A stretch of DNA of 64,000 nt, taken from Blepharisma japonicum. Taxonomy: Eukaryota; Ciliophora; Heterotrichea; Heterotrichida; Blepharismidae. The notes under the pieces are model-generated. The model searched no databases. It was not told the origin of the DNA and saw only the letters and a list, made by a program, of their open reading frames with translations. Both the position numbers and the translations under genes were made by a program. Positions 18,665 through 38,265 of the stretch are shown piece after piece. Numbering within the stretch: position 1 is the stretch's first letter; each line of letters opens with the position of its first letter. Location: NCBI GenBank assembly GCA_949751835.1, contig CATKHK010000062.1, positions 186,001-250,000 of the forward strand, read 5' to 3'.

Positions 18665-19510
18665 CTAAAAAGACTAGGTCTTTCTTTTAATTTGTGCTAT
18701 TTAATTATCTAAAATCCCTTATTAAATAATAATATTTTTATATTTGATAATAAATTTGAGACTTTTGGTGCTTTGAATGTTCAGCTGGATTCTGATGAGT
18801 TTTAAAACTTGGTTAAAATAGGTCTGAACCAAAAACTACTCATTTTCATCATAGAAATCGAAGTTTTAGCTTACAAATAGAGGAAAATAAAATTATTCAA
18901 AAATTCAACAAAAAACCAGACTTTCTTGCCAACTTCTAAAGGTATTTTTTTTACTCAATTCTTTAAACCTCTTTTTCTTATCACCCAATACATATAAAAA
19001 TAAATCAAATAATAATTCAGTAATAAATACAACTCGTAAATGTCTATGTCTGGCTATAATCGATAGCTTATATTACATTTCTAAATTAAATATGCCGTAT
19101 CGTATTCGGCTTAAAATCAATAAAAAATTGATGCTGAAGCTTTTCTATACTTAAAAGCCTTACTAATAAAATTATCGCTATTCCTCAAGGCGAAATCGAT
19201 AAACTTTTTAAATTTTTGCTTAATTTTGTCCAGTAAAAACTAAACAATAATATGCATATTAGACATAATTTTAGACATAAAATTATTAGTTTCTTACATT
19301 GAGGTTTTGGTTAAATATTTTACCTATCACTAAAATCTTTGCTCAGGCTAAGACCTAAAATGAGCCTGAACTTCAATTTTAAAAGTTGCCATATAATGGA
19401 ACCACATTTTTCTTAGATTATAATTTTTATATAATCATAAGCCTTTCTATTTCTTCACCTATTTTCTGCCATTGAATCCGTAAATTTAAGAATAAACGTC
19501 CTACTTACAA
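18665..19510. other. Intergenic stretch between the two inositol synthase copies
   Basis: These 846 bp are AT-rich and show no coding-like frame or RNA gene. The last 110 bp resemble the sequence just upstream of copy 1 and probably carry the promoter of copy 2. The rest does not visibly resemble the 16520-17000 region, so the duplication either covered little more than the gene and its promoter or the outer flanks have diverged. Confidence 0.5.
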
Positions 19511-21064
19511 ATGTCTGGAACAGGATTCGTAGCAGAACCTATTGTCGTAGAAAGCCCAAATGTCGAATATAGTAAGAATGAGATCATTTCTCGCTATGAG
19601 TATCGTGAATCAAGAGTGGTGGGCAATCGTGTGACTCCGTTAAACGAAAATCTCGTTTTCAAAACTCAGAGACAAATACCTAAGACAGGTGTCCTTTTGG
19701 TTGGATGGGGTGGCAACAATGGTACCACGCTTACAGCTGGTATCTTGGCCAACAAATTGAAAACCACCTGGATGACTAAGGAAGGCGAACATCATGCCAA
19801 TTTCTTGGGAAGCATCTGTCGTTCAGTTACCATGAGGATTGGAATTGATGATAATCTCCAGCCAGTCCACGCTCCTCTCTACGACGTCGTGCCAATGCTA
19901 AATCCTATCGACTTAGAAATCTGGGGATGGGATATTTCAAGCATGAACATCGCAGATGCCATGGCAAGGGCCAGAGTTCTGGATTATGATCTCCAAAGAA
20001 AACTTTACCCTGAGCTTAAAGACATGGTCCCATGGCCTTCAATTTATTCAGAAGATTTCATCGCTGCTAACCAAAATGATAGAGCTGATAATGTCATTCA
20101 AGGGACAAAACAAGAGCAACTCCAGGCATTGAGACAAAACATAAGAGAATTCAAGCAGTCAAAAGGAATCGAAAATGTTATTGTTCTCTGGACTGCTAAC
20201 ACTGAAAGATATGCAGAAATTCGTGAAGGCGTGAATGACACAGCTGATAACCTCTTAAGATCAATAGAGGCCAATGAATCAGAAATTGCTCCATCAACAA
20301 TCTTTGCAGTGGCGAGTATATTAGAAGGATGTACTTATATTAATGGATCCCCTCAAAATACATTCATACCTGGTGTGATTGAACTCTCTGAAAGACATCA
20401 AGTTCTTATTGCTGGTGATGACTTCAAAACCGGACAAACAAAGATTAAGACTGTGCTTTCTGACTTTTTAATCAACTCTGGTCTTAAGCTGGCTTCGGTA
20501 GTTAGCTATAACCATTTAGGTAATAATGATGGGAAAAACCTCAGTGCTCCAAAGACCTTCAGATCAAAAGAAATTTCAAAAAGTGGTGTCATTGACGACG
20601 TTATTAGAGCCAATAGGCTTATTTATGGAGAAAATGAGCATCCAGACCATTGCGTAGTTATCAAATACGTCCCATACGTAGGAGACAGTAAGAGAGCTAT
20701 GGATGAGTATACAAGTGAAATTTTCATGGGTGGCAGAAACACTATTGTGATGCACAACACTTGTGAGGACTCACTATTAGCTGCTCCTATTATCATGGAT
20801 CTTATTCTCTTAGCCGAACTTTGCACCAGAGTGCAAATTAAAAGAGCACAAGACGAAGAATACACCAGAATGCACCCTGTTTTGAGTATTTTAAGTTTCT
20901 TATTGAAATCACCTCAAGTTCCATCAGGATCACCTGTGATTCACTCTTTATTCAATCAAAGGTACTCAATTACTAATTTCCTGAGAGCTCTTGTTGGACT
21001 TCCGCCAGAAACATTCATGCTTCTTGAGCACAAGATTCCTTCACTACAAAATCGTAAATCATAA
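19511..21064 (+). CDS. INO1: Inositol-3-phosphate synthase, copy 2
   Basis: The product is 517 residues with the same signatures as copy 1: GWGGNNGTT, EGCTYINGSPQNTF, AGDDFKTGQTK, SYNHLGNNDGKNL and the MDEYTSEIFMGG block. All residues in these motifs are kept, so it should be active. The two genes align without gaps until the last residues, where this copy ends LQNRKS instead of LQKS. Differences cluster in the first half and near the C-terminus, while residues about 265-385 are nearly identical in protein and DNA. Copy 2 has more G and C in its first third. Two kept copies may give higher dosage or separate regulation. Confidence 0.97.
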   Translation: MSGTGFVAEPIVVESPNVEYSKNEIISRYEYRESRVVGNRVTPLNENLVFKTQRQIPKTGVLLVGWGGNNGTTLTAGILANKLKTTWMTKEGEHHANFLGSICRSVTMRIGIDDNLQPVHAPLYDVVPMLNPIDLEIWGWDISSMNIADAMARARVLDYDLQRKLYPELKDMVPWPSIYSEDFIAANQNDRADNVIQGTKQEQLQALRQNIREFKQSKGIENVIVLWTANTERYAEIREGVNDTADNLLRSIEANESEIAPSTIFAVASILEGCTYINGSPQNTFIPGVIELSERHQVLIAGDDFKTGQTKIKTVLSDFLINSGLKLASVVSYNHLGNNDGKNLSAPKTFRSKEISKSGVIDDVIRANRLIYGENEHPDHCVVIKYVPYVGDSKRAMDEYTSEIFMGGRNTIVMHNTCEDSLLAAPIIMDLILLAELCTRVQIKRAQDEEYTRMHPVLSILSFLLKSPQVPSGSPVIHSLFNQRYSITNFLRALVGLPPETFMLLEHKIPSLQNRKS

Positions 21065-21182
21065 GACTAAGTCAATTCTATTTTATCGTTGCAGTAATAC
21101 ATATTAATTTATATTCTGGTTTTTATTATTGTTATTATTATTTATTCCCTGTTTCCTCTTCAATATACATTCTAAATTGTAA

Positions 21183-21512
21183 TTACTTCAAAGGAGTTTG
21201 CTTCACAAATTGTTGAATTTGGTCAAAAACTAGTTGAAAATAAGCTTTTTCAATAAAATTGATTCCTCTATACTTAGGGTGCATGAGCCAGATGCAGAAT
21301 ATTGGCTTCACTAATAAAAATAGATAAAATCTAGATATTGATTACAAAGGCAAAAGACTCAGAACTGAAGTTTCAAAATAAGTAATTATTCCTAGCAGGA
21401 GCCAATATGAGATCCAGGATTTCTGACTTTCAGCGGTTCCTCTAAAAGATTGAGAAATAGGATATCCCAAACATATTGCAAAGCTTAAGAAAAATAATAA
21501 AACTCTGAACAT
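21183..21512 (-). CDS. REEP/DP1/Yop1-like ER membrane protein
   Basis: The coding sequence is 21183-21330 plus 21346-21512, giving 104 residues; each exon alone is very short. The spliced product has FFLSFAICLGYPISQSFRG, then KSWISYWLLLGIITYFETS, then LPLFYLFLLVKPIFCIWLMH followed by PKYRGINFIEKAY. The YWLLL...E pattern and the IWLMHPKYRG motif are those of the TB2/DP1/HVA22 family, which uses hairpin membrane segments to bend and shape tubular ER. It is short: the family's extended C-terminal tail is missing. The 15-nt intron puts TAA in frame if retained. The start MFRVLLFF is the first ATG. It is convergent with the inositol synthase gene 118 bp away. Confidence 0.88.
21331..21345 (-). other. 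15-nt intron in the REEP-like gene
   Basis: GTAATCAATATCTAG on the minus strand. Removal joins SLLPL to FYLFLLVKP; retention gives TAA. Confidence 0.88.
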
Positions 21513-21556
21513 CTTTATTTAATTTTTATTTTTTAAATAAATTTAATTTACTTACA

Positions 21557-22988
21557 TTAAGTCTTAGATTCAATCTTGCTGCTGTTTCTGGCCTTTTTCG
21601 ATTTTGGCTTTTCAGTGATTTTTATGTTTCCTTTTTTAAAAGATTTATGGAAGGCTTTTGGCTTTGCCTTAGAAATCAGGACTTTTGGAGGGACAATTTC
21701 AGATTTATTCTTTGTTAGTCTTGGAGATTTAGATAATGAATGACTACTATGTGATCTTTTCAATGATTTTGGAGTTTTCGATTGCTTTGAATTTTCTTTT
21801 GTATTTGCACTTTTCGGCCTTTCTCGCTTTACTAAATTATCAATTTCTTCTAAGCTAGGAATTACTTATGGCTTTATCATAGTCGGGTGCATCTCTAAAG
21901 CTTGGAGATTGAATTTTTAAGCTTTCAAACGTATCAAAGCTGTTCCTCATTTTGTCTTCTAAATCCGATAATGATCGATCTCTGGCTTGCACAAATGATG
22001 AAATTGGTGAGTTTGAAGGCAAAGTCTTATAATTTTTCTCATTTTGAGGTTTAGGTGTTTTTTTGCTGAACTTTTTCTCCAAGGTGTTTAATTCGAAATG
22101 TATCTTTTTTTGGTCTTTTGAGTATTTTTGCATAAGGTTTTGTAGCTTGTCAATTGATTTTGTCAGCTTCTCTTCAACTGATTTACTATCAGCTTGTACA
22201 TCCACAATTTTATTTATTTTTTCAATCGAGTGAGTTGTAATTTTTTCTAATTCTTTTACTTTACTTTCAAGCTCATTATTTTTGATTTTACTAGAATCTC
22301 CTTTGATTTCTGGGCTTTTTTTTCTTGTCCTAATTAATTCATCAATCTCTGACACTTTTTTTTGAAGTTTTGATAATTCATTTGTTTCATCGGCGCTATG
22401 TCGTCTATATCCGAATTCATATGAATTTTCATGAGTCCATTTATTGCTCAATATTTCTTCTATTCCTTTAATTTTATTATCTACCTCTTTTAAACCATTT
22501 GTAAAAAGCTCAAATAGTTTAGCTTCTGAATTTGCCATTGCCGAATTTACCTCTTTAGCAAAAGCATCTAAATCGCTCATTTGGTTTTTGACTTTAAGCT
22601 TCATTTCTAAATCTTCTAGTCTTTTGTCAAAGTTACTAAAATTCTGGGTAAAGCGCTCAAGTTTTGTTAGCTTTTGATTTATATCTGGGTCATATAGTAT
22701 AGATTTTTCATCTTCTTGAATTTCACTGTAGTCTTTTTGTAGCTTTAAAAGCCTATTTGTGTTAATTAAGCGGTCTTCTAAAATGTTCATTTGATTTTGA
22801 AGCTGATCTACTCGATTTGATAAGCCTTGAGTGAGAATTGCATTTTGAGTGGCTTTTTCTACCTGAACTTCTAAAAATGAAACATATGTTTGTCTATCAG
22901 TCATGAGATGCTGAGTATCAGAGATCTTAGCTGATGGACTTTTATTACGCTGGCGGTATTTTTCCCAATAGTGAGTAGCACTTGACAT
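21557..22988 (-). CDS. Coiled-coil protein with a basic C-terminal tail
   Basis: The coding sequence is 21557-21849 plus 21866-22988, giving 471 residues. Residues about 40-330 form a broken coiled coil rich in Lys, Leu, Glu and Asn (LQNQMNILEDRLINTNRLLK; KLEKITTHSIEK-like heptads). The C-terminal 100 residues, mostly from the second exon, are very basic with Ser-Pro and Lys-Pro repeats (KSKKARNSSKIESKT at the end). No catalytic domain, membrane segment or known family is recognised. The basic tail could bind microtubules or nucleic acid. The exons are in different frames, and the 16-nt intron joins them cleanly. The N-terminus MSSATHYWEKYRQRNKSP is the first ATG. Confidence 0.78.
21850..21865 (-). 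other. 16-nt intron in the basic coiled-coil gene
   Basis: GTAATTCCTAGCTTAG on the minus strand. Removal joins YDKAI to KEIDNLVKRERPKS. Retained, it leads to TAG and changes frame. Confidence 0.75.
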
Positions 22989-23425
22989 TTTTAAAATTCT
23001 TAGATTGAATTCGACTCTAGCAACTAAAAAATTCTAGAGCATTAATACTTCTAATACGCAAATAAAGACTTTAAAGATTGAATGGTTTTTATTAACTATA
23101 AATTTTTACAGGATAAAAAATTAAAATTGGATAGTTTCGTTTTAAATTTATCATAAACCGCCTGATGAAATTTGGCTAATTTAATGGTAAAATGCATATT
23201 TGGTTTTATAGAAAAAATATAAAAGAGGCATGCAATCTTAAGAGTATTAAATTTTCGCATCATCTATAATAAACAAATTAAATCTATTTATTTGTTTGAT
23301 TGATCTAAGTTAATAATTTTAATCTTCTTTCATCTCAAAGTTAATTGGATTGGCTACACTTATATCACTTTAAAATTTAAATTTATATGGTGATTCTTTA
23401 CAAACTTGATTAATTTAATAATTTC
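22989..23425. other. AT-rich intergenic stretch
   Basis: These 437 bp hold the promoter side of the minus-strand coiled-coil gene and the leader of the small plus-strand gene at 23426. I see no coding frame, RNA gene or repeat in it. Confidence 0.5.
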
Positions 23426-23602
23426 ATGGTAAAAGGAGCAAAAGATATCACAAAAACAACAAAAAAGTCAAAGATACCCAATCGAGAAGTTATTATACAT
23501 AATTTCACTATCTCTGAAGACCTTAAAACAATTGATGAAATAAGGATAAAGGTCCATTCGCAAGCTCCCAAGAGAAGAAGTAAAGCAGCATCCTTTAAGT
23601 AA
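23426..23602 (+). CDS. Small basic protein, hypothetical
   Basis: This is a 58-codon frame from ATG to TAA. The product is MVKGAKDITKTTKKSKIPN, then REVIIHNFTISEDLKTIDEI, then RIKVHSQAPKRRSKAASFK. It is rich in Lys and Arg at both ends with a more ordinary middle, and its base composition is higher in G and C than the surrounding DNA, which favours real coding. No family is recognised. It stands alone in a 1.5-kb gap, so it could also be a chance frame or one exon of a longer gene. Confidence 0.45.
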   Translation: MVKGAKDITKTTKKSKIPNREVIIHNFTISEDLKTIDEIRIKVHSQAPKRRSKAASFK

Positions 23603-24490
23603 TGAATATTTTACTAAAATGTGTGAGTTATGCATGTTACTTCTTTAAATAATGGCGATAATTGATAAGCGAATAACAAGTTATGTGCGCCAAGGCTTCG
23701 ATTAATTATTTTTGATGGCTTCAGATTGCCTAAAATAAATCATTATGCTTTTATAAATCGTTTTCCTAAAGAAATTTATTTGGCTCTATTGCATATATTA
23801 AATAAGGGGGTACATAAGCTATATGTAATTTTAACTTAAAAACGCTTTAATATAAGAGTATTCATTGAAATAACAGCTATATAAAACTAAATTGTCAATG
23901 AGTATAGACAAAGCTATATTGGCTGCCATCTTTTAAACTTCTGTATCTATCAAGTTTGCAAGCCATTGCGCTTTCAATGCATTTAAATAATTGCTAAAGC
24001 ATTATATTAAATCTTTTAATAATCATATATATTTAATATGAATCATTTATTAATTATTCTATTGCTAATTTTTAGCAACCAAATCGATTTCATATTACCA
24101 TTTTTATTCAATCGATAGATACATTATATGAATTAAGTTAAAAATAAACTTATAAATGAGATAAACATAATAGAACACTTTAAACAATAATTTTTAAAAT
24201 TTCTGAGATGTTTTGGCTTACTTGCAGTCTTTTTGAAATATCTTACTTCCAAAAGTGAATTATTTATTTAAATTTGTAAACACCCTATATTTATAATATA
24301 TCTCTAAATCAAATTTTATTAATAGGATTTACTTCTAAATGCGTAATTTTCCTAAATAAATGCGTCAGTTAAATACAAGTATCCGCATTTATTACATTTC
24401 AAAGTAGTAATTTTGTCATAAATAATATTCTAGAGCCCATCGCTTCGCAAACTTTGTTAAAAGGTCAATTCCAAATTTAAATCCATTTTA
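23603..24490. other. AT-rich intergenic stretch
   Basis: These 888 bp are very AT-rich and hold the promoter of the RING/B-box gene at the right end. A 57-codon open stretch near 23675-23840 reads protein-like (PRLRLIIFDGFRLPKIN) but has no ATG at its head and no splice partner that I could find. No RNA gene or repeat is seen. Confidence 0.45.
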
Positions 24491-25645
24491 ATGTCCGAGT
24501 CTTCAATCTTTGAATGCAGTCTATGCTTCAATTTCTATAACAACTCAACACGAGCTCCTCAATCTCTGCCTTGTGGTCACGTCTTTTGCAAATCCTGCAT
24601 ACTTTCTTATTCCTCTATGTATCTAGCATGCCCAGTTGACAAAAGTCCTCATCCAGGAGTTGATAAGCTGCCTTTATGCTTGAATATCCTTCACAACTTG
24701 CCGAAAGCAACAGCAAAAATAATTTACTGCTCAATCCACCCAAAACGGCAAATAAAATACAGATGCAGAATTCATAACGTTTATATATGCTCAGAATGTG
24801 TAATCCAGCATGCTGGATCTGGTCACGATCTCCAACAGTTTAAAGTAAACACAGACAAAATTAAAGATGACGTAAAAAGACTCTCAGAAAGCGCAAGCTT
24901 GGTTATGAGAAGCTCTGAAAGAGCGATTAAAGAGATTGAGGGGGTTCATAAAAGAGTTTCAAGGTTTTATGAAAACCAAATGTATAAAGTTACTACAGCT
25001 TTTGACTCAGCAATAAAACAGTTAATTAATAAAAAGACTGAGTTTACAGAGACTTTGAACAAAATGCTCAAAGATCAACTTGCAGCTATTGACACAAAAA
25101 GAATGAAATTTAATAAAAATTTAGAAAAATCCTGCGCTTGAAGTACAAAACTTCAGTCTTTAAATATAGAAATGATGGACCAAACTTATGAACAGTTTTT
25201 AAAAATCACATCAGAACTGATGAGAGAAATAAGTGCAACTACACCTGCCACTCCAAGCGAATTTGACTTGAAATTTTACCTCTTCAATGACCAAATCAGT
25301 CTGGGCGAGTTAGGCACTTTAAATCTTATGAAAGAACCGCTATGAACTTGTTCAAAATGCAGTTTTAAAAACTCAGAAGTTTCTTCAGTCTGCCAAGTCT
25401 GTTTTTCTGCTAAGTCTTCAAAATCATTCACAACAAACAACTCAGACTCACTTAAATCTCTTTCCAGCAGCAGTCGTTATCAGCATCAAGAAGAATCTTC
25501 ACCAACCCACAGCCCAACCCAAACCAATTTTGCTCGAAGTGTTGGGCCTAATCAAGCTCACTCTCCAGAAAAACCCAATCACAAGCCAAGAGGCAAATCC
25601 AAAGCAGCTGATCCTCAAAGCCACAAATCCAATGTAAGCTTTTAA
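24491..25645 (+). CDS. RING/B-box/coiled-coil protein with a RanBP2-type zinc finger
   Basis: The product is 384 residues, read through TGA at 25139-25141 and near 25343. Domains in order: a C3HC4 RING at residues 9-55 (CSLCFNFY, PCGHVFCKSCI, CPVDKS); a B-box type 2 near 80-115 (CSIHPKRQIKYRCRIHNVYI then CSECVIQHAGSGH, with all eight metal ligands in spacing); a helical region to about 215; a RanBP2/NZF finger, WTCSKCSFKNSEVSSVCQVC, whose leading Trp is a TGA codon; and a polar tail. RING plus B-box plus coiled coil is the TRIM plan, so a ubiquitin ligase is likely, and NZF fingers often bind ubiquitin or RNA. The substrate is unknown. CFAP20 follows 36 bp later. Confidence 0.88.
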
Positions 25646-25681
25646 TTAATTCCTCTAATAGTAATCCATATTATTTCGGTT

Positions 25682-26257
25682 ATGTTCAAAAACACCTTCC
25701 AGTCAGGATTTTTATCAATTTTATACAGCATCGGAAGCAAGCCACTACAGATCTGGGACAAGAGTGTGAGAAATGGGCATATAAAACGTATCACAGACCA
25801 AGACATTCAGAGTTCCGTCTTAGAAATTATGGGGACAAATGTGAGCACCACTTTCATTACATGTCCTGCAGATCCTAACCAAACCTTAGGGATAAAACTG
25901 CCCTTCTTAGTCATGATCATAAAAAATCTCAAAAAATATTTTACGTTCGAAGTGCAGGTGCTTGACGATAAAAACATACGAAGAAGATTTAGGGCGTCGA
26001 ATTATCAGAGTACTACGAGAGTAAAACCGTTCATATGCACAATGCCGATGAGGCTAGATGAAGGATGGAACCAGATTCAGTTTAACTTGTCAGATTTCAC
26101 GAGAAGAGCGTATGGGACAAACTATATTGAAACTTTAAGAGTGCAAATACATGCCAATTGCAGAATGAGAAGAATTTATTTCTCCGATAGACTTTATTCA
26201 GAAGAAGAGCTGCCGCCAGAGTTTAAATTGTTTTTACCTCTTCAAAAACAAGCTTAA
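25682..26257 (+). CDS. CFAP20: Cilia- and flagella-associated protein 20 (BUG22)
   Basis: The product is 191 residues, the normal length for the family (human 193), and the sequence is highly conserved throughout: [20 protein letters not shown], then [19 protein letters not shown], then [17 protein letters not shown], and later [44 protein letters not shown]20 is an inner-junction protein that links the A and B tubules of ciliary doublets. In ciliates (Paramecium Bug22) it is needed for normal cilia movement and shape. No intron or TGA codon is present. It lies 36 bp after the RING/B-box gene on the same strand. Confidence 0.97.
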
Positions 26258-32346: not shown

Positions 32347-33471
32347 ATGGAAAATCAAAGACGATTTTTACAACTTGGCCAAAGAAGAAAAGATAAACTA
32401 AGACAAGTCCTTGAACACCAATACGGTGAAGAAGTAATTATAAATTAGAAAATCCTCATAATTGAAAAAGCAATGGCTAATGTAGATCAACTTTTCGACC
32501 AAGGCCTCTCATTTACAGAAATCCTTCATCAATTGCAAAACAAAATCAATCAAGAAACATCCAATTCTCCTCAAAAATTCTCAGCAGAAAATAGATCCCC
32601 ACAGTATAATCAGCAGCAACGGGTTTATAATGATGAAAGAAAAATCCATAACGATTATCCACCCATCAATAAATCCTATTTTAATAACCAGCAAAATCAG
32701 GAGCTTACAAGCAATAACTCTTATATCCTCCCCAGAGGAAGAAGCAATTTTGATAAACAAAGCTCAGAACGATCTTTAAGTGAATGAGACGAATATGATG
32801 AAATGCGAAGCAGATTTGAGCTCGAATTTAAAGGCGTTTCTAAAAACTTTGAAGAAATACAGAAAAAAATTGTCCCTGCTGTTTCTCCATTTGAATATAA
32901 AGCTAAACAAGACGAGCTTAAAGCGCTAGAAGCTATGAAAATAGGCCAAGCTTTTTATAAAGAAAAAGAAATTTATGACAAAATGCATCATAAACAAGTT
33001 CTCACAGAAAACAGAGAGGCGTTGTTGAAACAGATGAGAGAAAAACAAGAAATCATGAATAAACAAATAGAAGAAGATAAAATATATGGCATGTCTCTTG
33101 CGGAAAGAAAGAAGCGAGGAGAGCTTAACCAAGTCTATGATAAGATGAGGACTAGAGAAAAGCAACGAGAGTATTATGTTGCGTTAAAAAATCAAGTAGA
33201 TACCAAAGAGATAGAGAAAAAAAAATTTGATGCTTTGAAAGAGGAGCTTAAAAAAATTCATATGTCAAATCCAGAAATCGGGATCAGAAACTTAAATCCT
33301 ATAGTAAAAGATATCAGCCAAGTGAGCAATCATTATTCACCAGCCAAAGGAATCAACGATAGCTTTCGGTACAACCCTGCATCAAATTACTCCTTTTCGA
33401 CAGAAAGGAGTGCAACACCTGGCCGTAGTGGATATCTGGCTCATTATGGAAGCCATGTTTTACATAATTAA
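32347..33471 (+). CDS. Coiled-coil protein of unknown function
   Basis: The coding sequence is 32347-32433 plus 32449-33471, giving 369 residues, read through TGA at 32785-32787. The first exon encodes MENQRRFLQLGQRRKDKLRQ and VLEHQYGEE, and splicing continues as KILIIEKAMANVDQLFDQ. Residues 40-150 are Asn/Gln/Ser-rich; residues 150-300 are a long charged helix (EQMREKQEIMNKQIEEDK-like, and SLAERKKRGELNQVYDKMRT). The C-terminus is Ser/Tyr-rich and resembles tails of ciliary proteins. No named family is recognised. The 15-nt intron gives TAG in frame if retained, so a shorter start at 32473 is the alternative if it is not used. Confidence 0.75.
32434..32448 (+). other. 15-nt intron in the coiled-coil gene at 32.3 kb
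   Basis: GTAATTATAAATTAG. It fits the size, GTA start and TAG end of the other introns and links the short first exon in frame. Confidence 0.75.
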
Positions 33472-33490
33472 TTTTGAAAATAAATAGAAA

Positions 33491-34864
33491 TTAAGCTACA
33501 ATTCTTTTTCTTGACAAGCTAGCAAGGCCAATCGCAAAAGCCTGGAACATTGAAAGAGGGGATCGGTAATCTAAATGGAAATTTTCTGTTGAAATTTTCC
33601 CAAACATAAAATAAATTGTGTCTGGGTCATCTGGCATGACAAGCTGGAAATTTTTAGCACTAGCCCTTGAGACCCTTCCATAAAAATTAAGTGTGTAGCA
33701 TTCAGCTCTCTCATTTCATCTTGGAGGAACATTATTTAGCGTCACTTCTTCTTTGTTTTCTTCATCTCATAGTTTGACTTCTAAACTTCTTGGTGTATCT
33801 CCCAATATATTTGATTCGTATTTGACTTTTAATTTTTCTTCTCGTAGCTTGATAAATCCTTGTGGAAATCTATTGGCAATTTTATCTTTGACTCCATGGT
33901 CAAAGAGCGTGAAATCGTTTCCTCAAAAGTTGTTTACCATAACTCCAATATATTCATCACTAAATTGTTCAGATTGAGATTTGCAAACTACGATATCTCC
34001 TGAGTCACTATACCTCTCAGCATAAAGCATTAATGCATTATCGTGCTCTCTGACTAGTCTAAATATGTGTGGATAATCACTTCCTGTGAAACCTTCTTCT
34101 GAACGAGTTCTCTCGATCCTCATCAGATTGTACATATTTTGGACAACGTGAAATACATGCCTATTACTTAGACTTTCCTTAGCTTTATAAGAAAAAATTT
34201 CAAGAGATACTTTTTGGGATTTTCCGTCCTTGGTATATATTAAAAAAGGAACTTCATATGTTAAATTTTTGTCGTCTTTGATAGTTTTTGGAAGAGACAT
34301 TTCTCCAAACCTAGAAAGCAATAAAATTCGAGTATAAACATAGCATTTTTCAAGTAATATTTCGTTTTTGATTTGAGAGGCAATTGATATTACTTCGACA
34401 AGATTAGAAGGATTGAGATATTTTGATATGTATTCCACGATTTGATCTTCAAGTTTTTGCATTTTTATAAAACTTGCAGTAACGACTAAGGAAAGCATTG
34501 TTTTAGGCTGAATGTCAAAAAAATTGAAGTTCTGATGGTCCAAATAGTCCAGGCAAGTTAAAATAGACTCAATGCTTACTTGGTTTTTTCTTGATGTCAG
34601 TTTTATCTAAATAATCTTTACTTCTATTGCTTTATTTCTTTGCAAAATGTTTTTATCTTTTATCAATATTTCTTTGAAAAATGTGCTTCTAGCGAGGATT
34701 TTAGCTTTAACTCTGACGTTGAAATCTTCTACATAAGTCAGCATGTCTAAATAAAAGCTACTGTATTGCGGACCTTCTTGCTCAGGTGGATTTAAATTAG
34801 GATGAATTGATCTTAGCATCACTTCGACCTTTTTCTCACAATTTTCAGGATCAATTCGTTCCAT
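33491..34864 (-). CDS. BTB-tubby fusion protein
   Basis: The coding sequence is 33491-34606 plus 34622-34864, giving 452 residues, with TGA Trp codons at 33923-33925 and twice nearer the end. Residues about 30-150 look like a BTB/POZ domain: VRVKAKILARSTFFKEILIK, then a strand-helix unit, then LSLVVTASFIKMQKLEDQIV and YISKYLNPSNLVEVISIASQ, which is typical BTB-to-BACK helix wording. From about residue 250 it is a tubby domain: YPHIFRLVRE, NNFWGNDFTLFDHG, LNNVPPRWNERAECYTLNF, YGRVSRASAKNFQLVM and SPLSMFQAFAIGLASLSRKR at the C-terminus. Tubby domains bind phosphoinositides and ferry proteins into cilia; BTB domains often recruit Cullin-3. The tubby part is compact, about 200 residues. The BTB call is softer than the tubby call. 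Confidence 0.85.
34607..34621 (-). other. 15-nt intron in the BTB-tubby gene
   Basis: GTAAAGATTATTTAG on the minus strand. Removal joins RNKAIE to IKLTSRKNQ inside the BTB-like region; retention gives TAG. Confidence 0.88.
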
Positions 34865-35330: not shown

Positions 35331-38265
35331 ATGTCAATCGAGTGGCTTAATGACAGAGAAGATAAGCTTCATGAAGACGAATTCGTAACAATCTAAACAG
35401 ATAGCCGACGAACTGGGTTTTGACACCATTCACGATGAAGATGCTAAATCAGATACCTTCAGAAATGTGATGCTTTCCTCAATTCGCATAAGAACAGCTG
35501 AAGTCAAAGCAGTCGCCATTTCAATGAAAGCAATATACGTGATAACCACAGACAAGCAAGCCCTTAGATGGACTTTCCAAGAAGAGGAGCGTCTCAAAGA
35601 AGCCAATCGTGACAGCATGACTGAATTAATCATCAGGGTGACGAATTTACAATTAGAAAATGTTTTTTGTGACCCAACTGGATGGCATTGTTTGGTAACT
35701 ATGAGCAGTGGCGACACTCATTATTTCCACTTGACCTCGACTTCTTCTGTATTTATACACAAGCTTCACAGCTTTAATATTGAAAGTGTTGCTTGGAGTG
35801 GACAAACAGAGTATTATCAAACTCGAGAGATTCTGCTAGGCACTCGCAATGGAGTTATTTTAGAAATGAGCTTGGAATTTGACCAGACAACTGAGACTAT
35901 TAAGCAGCATCAGTTTTCAAGGGTCATTGAGCTACCTGGAGGTCCTTGCATAAGTGGAATATTATATGAAATGATTCCAGGCATGCCTGCTAAATATAGT
36001 GTGATGGCTGCAACGGTGAACTGTTTGTTTCAGTTTATAGGAGACGCTAATGAACAAAGAAGGCCAGATTTTCCAAAATTATTTGAAAAATATAGAACTA
36101 ACCCAACTTTGCTTCAGTCCTGCACACATGAAGTAGGAGGCTCTTTAAAAAAAAGCCAGCTGCAGTACTACTATACAAGAGGAAGAGCTGATGGTTTTGC
36201 CTGGATGTCTGGTTCTGGACTGATGTACGGAAAACTAGCCACCAACACAAGTGAAGAAATTTTTGTAACTACAATGAAGCCTGTCCCATTTCCAGCCAGG
36301 GGTAATGACAAGGTTATAGGCATTGGCATGACTGCTTATCATGTATATTTCTTATTCAGCAATGCTTTGCTGTGTGTTTCTAAGCTAAACCAGCAAGTAG
36401 TCCATACAATTGATTTTGAAATGAGGCCTGGCTACGAAATGCAAGGAATCATGTTTGATGCACAAACTCACTCATTATTTGCTTGGAGTAATAAATTTAT
36501 TTACCAAATCCTGATTGATAATGAAGACAGAGATGTCTGGAAATATTATATTGAGCAAAACCGACATGAAGAAGCTGTAAAATTCTGTGAGAGGACTGAC
36601 TCACCATTTTTGCCAAAAGTTAAAGGTCTTTATGCAGATTTTTTATTCCATGAAGGAAAAACGCTTTTGGCTGCTGACTCTTATGCTCAAAGTGACAGGA
36701 CTTTTGAAGAAATCGCATTGAAACTGATGAGTGACAGCCCTGCTTTGCAAAGATTTCTAGAAGCTAAGTTGAATCGCATGGGAAATGACATGAAGGCACA
36801 GAGGACTCTGCTGAGCACTTGGCTTGTGGAAATTCATTTGCATAACATAAATTCACTGCTTATGATTGAAGAGGACTCCTCTAAAAATGCCCAAGAAGAC
36901 CTCAGAACATTTTTATCATTACACCATCAAGATTTAGATGCAACAACCACCTATGATTTATTACAAAGCCATGGACGAATTGAGGATTGGGTTTATTTTG
37001 CTGAGCTAAAAGGAAACTTTGAGCTTGTCATGCTTCATCACATGAATCAGCAAGAATTTAAAAAAGCTTTAATGAAGCTTGAGCATGCTGAGCCAACCTT
37101 TAAGGAACCTTTATTATATCGATACTCTCCAGTATTCATGAAAAATGAGCCTAAAAAAACAGTAGACCTCTTAATAGAGTTAGCAAGAGAAAGAGGCAAA
37201 GCTTTTGAGGCTAAAAAATTATTGCCTGCTTTGATGAACGTTGAAAAGCTATATAGAGAGCAAGCTATTCGTTTTGAAGTTTTTTGCATTAATGAATTAC
37301 AAGTCAGAGAAAAATCTTTACACAATTTGTTGATTTTCCATTTAGCTGAAAGTGATGAAGAAGCATTGCTGGAGTATTTCCAGAGACAGGAAGAACAAAG
37401 TGAGCTTGATTTTGACCCTGAATATGCATTATCAGTATGCAAACAGAGCAGCAGGATTGAAGCTTTAATTTTCTTATACAGTCTGCTCAAGATGTATAGT
37501 GAAGCTGTCTCTATTGCTTTGGAAAATAATAAATTGCAGCTTGCCAAAGAAAATGCTCAAAAGCCTGAACGACAGGACGAAGATTTATCTAGGAGACTGT
37601 GGCTTCAAATAGCAATTCATTTAATCAAGATTTCTGATGTGAAAGCTGCTTTAGAAGTAATGCATGAAAGCAAACTCATAAAAATGGAAGATTTATTGCC
37701 ATATTTTGATGAATCAGTTAGCATTTCAAACTTTAAAGAAGACATTTGTAAAGCTTTAGAAGGATACAAAGAAAAAATTGACGAATTAAAAACAGAACTG
37801 GATGAGTCAAGCAGCTCTTCCCAACAAATCAAAAAGGAGCTGCACATGGTGAAACAAAGGTTTATCGAAATAGAAGGACTTCAACCTTGTGATATCTGCG
37901 GCAAAGCTGCAATGAAGAGAAACTTTTATATTTACCCTTGTGCTCATGCATTTCATAAAGACTGCTTGCTTGACACATTGCTGCCAATATTAAAAATTAA
38001 AGATTACATTAGAGCTAACAGAATCCAAACACTTCTTGAAAATATAAGCGATATAGAAGGAACTTTAAGCCAATCGTCAAGGCCAAGCAAGCTTAAAAGA
38101 TCAGAAGAGCAAAAAGATCAGCATAATAATCTTAAAGATTTAAATGAAAGACTCGACCAGATGCTAGCACCTCACTGTTATTTATGTGGAGCACTATTTA
38201 TTGAGAGCATTAGGGATAATATGTTAGAAGACGCATATGAAATTGATAGCTGGACTATTAATTAG
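35331..38265 (+). CDS. VPS18: VPS18, HOPS/CORVET tethering subunit
   Basis: The coding sequence is 35331-35384 plus 35401-38265, giving 972 residues, almost the human length (973). The N-terminal part is a beta-propeller (IYVITTDKQALRWTFQ, CDPTGWHCLVTMSSGDTHYF). The middle is a long alpha solenoid with clathrin-heavy-chain-like helices (QNRHEEAVKFCERTDSPFLP, DYADFLFHEGKTLLAA-like). The C-terminus has a coiled coil and a RING, CDICGKAAMKRNFYIYPCAH, AFHKDCLLD, with CYLCGALF completing the ligands. VPS18 is the core subunit of the HOPS and CORVET complexes that tether endosomes, lysosomes and vacuoles before fusion. The 16-nt intron near the start is needed to reach MSIEWLNDRED. The stop lies 9 bp from the end of the convergent UTP20 gene. 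Confidence 0.95.
35385..35400 (+). other. 16-nt intron in VPS18
   Basis: GTAACAATCTAAACAG. Removal joins LHEDEF to IADELGFDTI. Retained, TAA follows at once. Confidence 0.85.

Follow-up and report, generated by a model that had tools for sequence, protein, structure and literature searches.

Does a single ciliate gene join a BTB domain to a tubby domain, and what would such a protein do? The locus that raises this question lies within the window, the whole 64-kb stretch of DNA that was analysed (C62:186001-250000), which belongs to a Blepharisma japonicum assembly of 45.2 Mb in 224 contigs. The gene occupies 34864..33491, as the first-pass annotation had it, and runs on the minus strand, which that annotation had left unstated. 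It has two exons around a 15-nt intron and encodes 452 residues with TGA read as Trp. Exon 1 (34622..34864, minus strand) starts with an ATG at 34864, just downstream of in-frame TAA codons at 16-18 and 22-24 nt, and encodes residues 1-81; exon 2 (33491..34606, minus strand), whose frame is open under table 4, encodes residues 82-452 with three TGA codons as Trp and ends in TAA. In spliced numbering the TGA codons give W309, W361 and W378; the last two are aligned with Trp of the tubby paralogues on C64 and C73, and W309 is aligned with Trp in neither. The proposed intron, GTAAAGATTATTTAG (34607..34621, minus strand), has GT...AG ends and is like, in its length of 15 nt, the introns GTAAATATAATTTAG, GTAAACTGTATTTAG and GTAAATGATATTTAG, which lie at a site common to three tubby paralogues of the genome. 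Unspliced, the frame is closed by a TAG at the end of this intron, the sole stop within 34864..33491 under table 4. The BTB profile described below scores 22.9 bits on the spliced protein versus 19.4 bits with the intron read in frame. We also counted GTAW...TAG 15-16-mers, but this count is no proof, as the motif is rarer in the window than expected (31 versus a mean of 57.2 in 50 mononucleotide shuffles). It is from the frame, the BTB score and the paralogue introns that we infer splicing of 34621..34607. In Blepharisma stoltei, tiny introns, mostly of 15 and 16 bp, the use of UGA for Trp and a somatic genome of 41 Mbp have been reported (PMC9942806), and the window agrees with a heterotrich of this kind.

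Both neighbouring genes lie on the plus strand. The tail-to-tail neighbour is a coiled-coil-like gene (32473-33471) with a weak TPH match (E 4.5e-4, under the cut-off), and 19 nt separate the two stop codons (33471..33491). On the other side, an ORF for a Vps18 beta-propeller (35467-38265; Pep3_Vps18, E 1.6e-55) runs in the opposite direction and starts about 600 nt from the start of the BTB-tubby gene.

The C-terminal tubby domain that had been called from the letters is certain. It covers about residues 243-448 (33506..34123, minus strand), with a Pfam Tub match at E 7.3e-40 and 137.7 bits (cut-off 27), and is matched over almost its full length, in two stretches. A PDB sequence search returned TULP1 and tubby chains at E 6e-30 to 7e-29 and TULP3 at E 5e-25, and contained no BTB match. 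The BTB domain, residues 38-143 (34421..34753, minus strand, split by the intron), gives a weak match with Pfam. When the whole protein was searched, Pfam BTB aligned to residues 37-143 at E 0.096, and when only the first 191 residues were searched it reached E 0.018 with 15.7 bits, under the cut-off of 20.5; the gene was also not among the matches listed in a Pfam BTB scan of its own genome (at least 23, at E of 0.01 or less). Since Pfam BTB alone stayed under its cut-off and the gene was unlisted, we built profiles from the 23 listed BTB domains of the genome (from 21 genes, of which two contribute a pair each), with the BTB-tubby gene itself excluded. The resulting BTB profile matched at 22.9 bits (single-target E 4.9e-9), while the best of 2000 shuffles reached 14.1 bits, and among 120 window ORFs of at least 100 residues the best score, 13.6 bits, belonged to the gene's own exon 2. 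The hhalign probability for BTB was 83.8%, compared with at most 1.4% in 100 shuffles. Single-sequence AlphaFold models, made with five intron residues read in, had a mean pLDDT of 32.4 for the full protein and 40.0 for the first 200 codons. The full-protein model has strands followed by a run of helices, but this BTB-like look carries no weight because the 200-codon model is all helix. The idea of a BTB and a tubby domain in one spliced frame is thus borne out by the own-genome profiles, hhalign and Pfam Tub, and the predicted architecture is very probably real.

The profile search of the N-terminal region against BTB and BACK models that had been suggested as a check gave a divided answer, as the own-genome BTB profiles match, Pfam BTB falls short as described above, and a Pfam scan of the protein returned no BACK match. 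A BACK-like signal does appear when the 23 listed domains are each extended by 45 residues: the joint profile of BTB and the start of BACK aligned to residues 38-173 at 37.6 bits (single-target E 1.2e-13), about 15 bits more than BTB alone, and its controls were low (13.2 bits for the best of 2000 shuffles, 4.8 bits for the best other window ORF). This would extend the predicted BTB match into the start of BACK, at the 3-box position, which the first-pass annotation had not seen. The putative BACK-like helical stretch occupies residues 144-173 (34331..34420, minus strand), includes the start only and is too short to make a full BACK. Taken alone, the BACK-like piece (residues 137-195) scores a marginal 10.6 bits, with the best controls at 10.5 bits in 1000 shuffles of the N-terminus and 9.0 bits in 1000 shuffles of the piece.

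The tubby half had been expected to bind phosphoinositides, and its residues do not support this. In mouse tubby numbering, which agrees with the letters expected in the 1i7e chain when that chain is numbered from 241, K330, N310 and R332 are replaced by Val, Ile and Val, and R363 is retained; we take N310 and R363 to be residues of the lipid pocket as well. The lipid-binding K330-L-R332 corresponds to V303-M304-V305 of the predicted protein (33935..33943, minus strand). The alignment is poor near position 310, where the phmmer and MAFFT placements differ slightly and neither puts Asn there. All four residues (K330, R332, N310 and R363) are kept in three of three tubby paralogues. R332 of mouse tubby has been placed in the canonical PI(4,5)P2 pocket, with affinity reduced by R332H, and a second site has been described at 301-305 (PMC10445746). 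The RKRKK of this second site is AERYS in the BTB-tubby protein, and the paralogues read K, K, R followed by a pair of small residues, which leaves their second site only half basic too. Judged by these residues, the predicted phosphoinositide pocket of the BTB-tubby protein is lost, and with the loss of the residues that grip the lipid its tubby half is probably protein-binding.

The explanation we prefer, with confidence evenly divided for and against, is that this one gene encodes an adaptor in which a dimeric BTB domain and the start of BACK are followed by a protein-binding tubby domain, possibly serving CUL3. The BTB domain would dimerise the protein; the tubby barrel, its PI(4,5)P2 grip gone, would have become a protein-binding module; and the assembly would carry a bound partner to another complex, the likeliest single one being CUL3, engaged through the BTB/3-box face. 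A stricter form of this explanation, in which the protein is a true CUL3 substrate receptor whose BTB and 3-box recruit CUL3 while the tubby domain selects the substrate, is a serious candidate to which we give somewhat less than even credence. It is favoured by the 3-box-like continuation after the BTB domain in the joint profile and by the cullins of the genome, which has nine long and five shorter cullin matches. The one examined (L047) matches PDB Cullin-3 at E 5.2e-84 and Cullin-4A next at E 3.5e-50, and by this comparison a CUL3-like gene is present (C5:366236-368029). The human TULP3-Cullin-3 link is a further point in its favour: TULP3 is reported to co-precipitate with Cullin-3, and Cullin-3 knockdown to raise TULP3 (PMC7948452). 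Because it rises upon knockdown, TULP3 reads as a CUL3 substrate and not as an adaptor, and the association suggests that a tubby protein and the CUL3 ligase can come together even when they are separate chains. Against a true receptor, the BACK part is short and marginal alone, and a contact motif is missing. BTB-BACK receptors are described as contacting CUL3 via phi-x-E and the 3-box (PMC3616122, PMC13061254), but by profile alignment phi-x-E is absent from the CUL3-contacting site of the BTB-tubby protein, where N72-I73-L74 (KNILQ) is found instead; F63-K-E65 fits the pattern nine residues too early. Among the 23 listed BTB domains of the genome, phi-x-E occurs in 14 and is missing from nine, and many KCTD proteins are reported to serve CUL3 with neither phi-x-E nor a 3-box (PMC13061254). 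On these residues, recruitment of CUL3 by the BTB-tubby protein is possible, and we lean slightly against its actual use of CUL3.

The missing phi-x-E speaks for a dimeric scaffold outside any ligase, in which the BTB domain only dimerises or binds other partners and the tubby domain binds proteins, a reading that we hold as tentative and well short of even. It draws further on the kind of BTB domain involved. In a pairwise comparison with the N-terminus, which left out L031 and L039 as second domains of genes already included, two SANBR-like proteins ranked first, weakly (9.5 and 8.2 bits), with L026 (8.2 bits) and L033 (8.1 bits) level with the second of them, and the BTB domain of SANBR is reported to be a homodimer that binds HDAC1 and SMRT (PMC8141524). 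Removing the two SANBR-like domains from the joint profile, however, lowered its score only from 37.6 to 35.3 bits, and a joint profile from the 14 phi-x-E domains alone still gave 27.8 bits; a profile from the nine BTB domains lacking phi-x-E did not separate from its control (14.4 bits versus 13.4 for shuffles). Since the score scarcely drops when the pair is removed, the BTB domain does not appear specially SANBR-like, and we dropped the idea of a special kinship. The genome does contain SANBR-like genes at C79:167500-172500 (L045) and C179:14500-19500 (L046), with Pfam BTB_SANBR scores of 104.5 and 107 bits. In mouse B cells SANBR is reported to regulate antibody class switching (PMC8141524), and the presence of two such genes in a ciliate makes the family look far older than this role.

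A membrane-tethered adaptor, whose tubby half would bind phosphoinositides through other residues, is improbable. Retention of R363 and the almost full-length match of the tubby domain, in two stretches, are consistent with it, but K330 and R332 are both Val, and in mouse tubby the double change K330A/R332A is reported to abolish PI(4,5)P2-dependent clustering almost entirely (PMC10445746); the basic second site is replaced as well. A chance resemblance to BTB in an unrelated helical N-terminus, which the sub-cut-off Pfam score, the absence of the gene from the genome matches listed (at least 23), the lack of a BTB match in PDB and the low-pLDDT models might suggest, is very improbable, because 2000 shuffles and the other window ORFs all fall far below the observed score and the hhalign control agrees.

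The preferred reading, an adaptor with a protein-binding tubby domain, can be set against the other tubby genes of the same cell. We found four in the genome, namely the BTB-tubby gene and the paralogues on C64, C9 and C73 (L042-L044). On the suggestion that the architecture may be lineage-specific, the comparison covered this genome, where BTB is present in only one of the four tubby genes found. By eye, the roughly 370-430 residues that precede the tubby domain in the three paralogues look disordered, and among 113 further sequences from the 7-kb stretch of each paralogue (the paralogue N-termini and six-frame ORFs of at least 60 residues) none scored above 3.4 bits with the BTB-BACK profile, compared with 37.6 bits for the BTB-tubby protein. 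C64, C9 and C73 all have an intron directly behind VLY of the tubby domain, a site where the BTB-tubby gene has none; C64 and C73 have two further intron sites in common. Intron loss would fit the missing intron, as would insertion of a retroposed tubby cDNA downstream of a BTB gene. We also looked for BTB-tubby relatives elsewhere, and none of three pattern matches in viral contigs and none of 26 in genome contigs, collections that may exclude this genome itself, was confirmed. Weak matches on C87 (to residues 124-211, E 0.1 to 0.4) were dismissed because three ORFs there looked F-box-like by eye, and one on C18 (L015, E 0.67) was dismissed because its ORF resembles a tubulin-tyrosine-ligase-like protein by eye. 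The C87 region (19246-25906) holds three similar ORFs of ~310-330 residues (L011, L013 and L014), on one strand within 7 kb, each with an F-box-like start by eye.

Several known protein families share parts of this architecture. Animal tubby and TULP1-3 have a homologous tubby domain (E 6e-30 to 5e-25) but differ from the BTB-tubby protein in K330, R332 and N310, which it does not retain, and to our knowledge they have no BTB domain. The paralogues on C64, C9 and C73 resemble this animal form in their long N-termini and their intact pocket. TULP4 joins a tubby domain to a different cullin-linked box, the SOCS box, which works with CUL5, and has WD40 repeats, compared with BTB and a possible CUL3 link here. 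BTB-BACK proteins such as KLHL and SPOP, together with SANBR, have BTB followed by BACK, an order that the BTB-tubby protein appears to follow as far as the start of BACK, but their partner domain is kelch, MATH or SANT instead of tubby, and the BTB-tubby protein lacks phi-x-E. A parallel in design is offered by the plant tubby-like proteins (TLPs), which are described as having a C-terminal tubby domain and, ahead of it in most members, an F-box, which is a cullin-ligase adaptor domain (PMC11900523, PMC5107566). The plant adaptor domain is an F-box (SKP1-CUL1), whereas the ciliate protein has BTB and a putative start of BACK, and no F-box family was present among its Pfam matches up to E 10. 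The tubby domain of AtTLP3 reportedly quits the plasma membrane in a phospholipase-C-dependent manner (PMC11900523), while the lipid residues of the BTB-tubby protein are lost. Our literature search found no report of a BTB-tubby protein, and protein-architecture databases may well list one. That the gene records a separate tubby-adaptor fusion made with BTB and CUL3 in a ciliate, with tubby turned from lipid sensor into protein receptor, we consider rather unlikely as a complete account.

Taken at the level of its predicted domains, the BTB-tubby protein is a variant of a known adaptor-plus-tubby design, and its lipid pocket is degenerate, which the first-pass annotation had not foreseen. With an F-box before tubby in plants and BTB before tubby in a ciliate, this design would have been reached more than once. 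The loss of the pocket in one copy, while three paralogues of that cell keep it, would also make a natural test of tubby function without PI(4,5)P2 binding. If the separate fusion with BTB and CUL3 is the true account, one chain would unite the contact between TULP3 and the Cullin-3 ligase that is made between separate proteins in humans.
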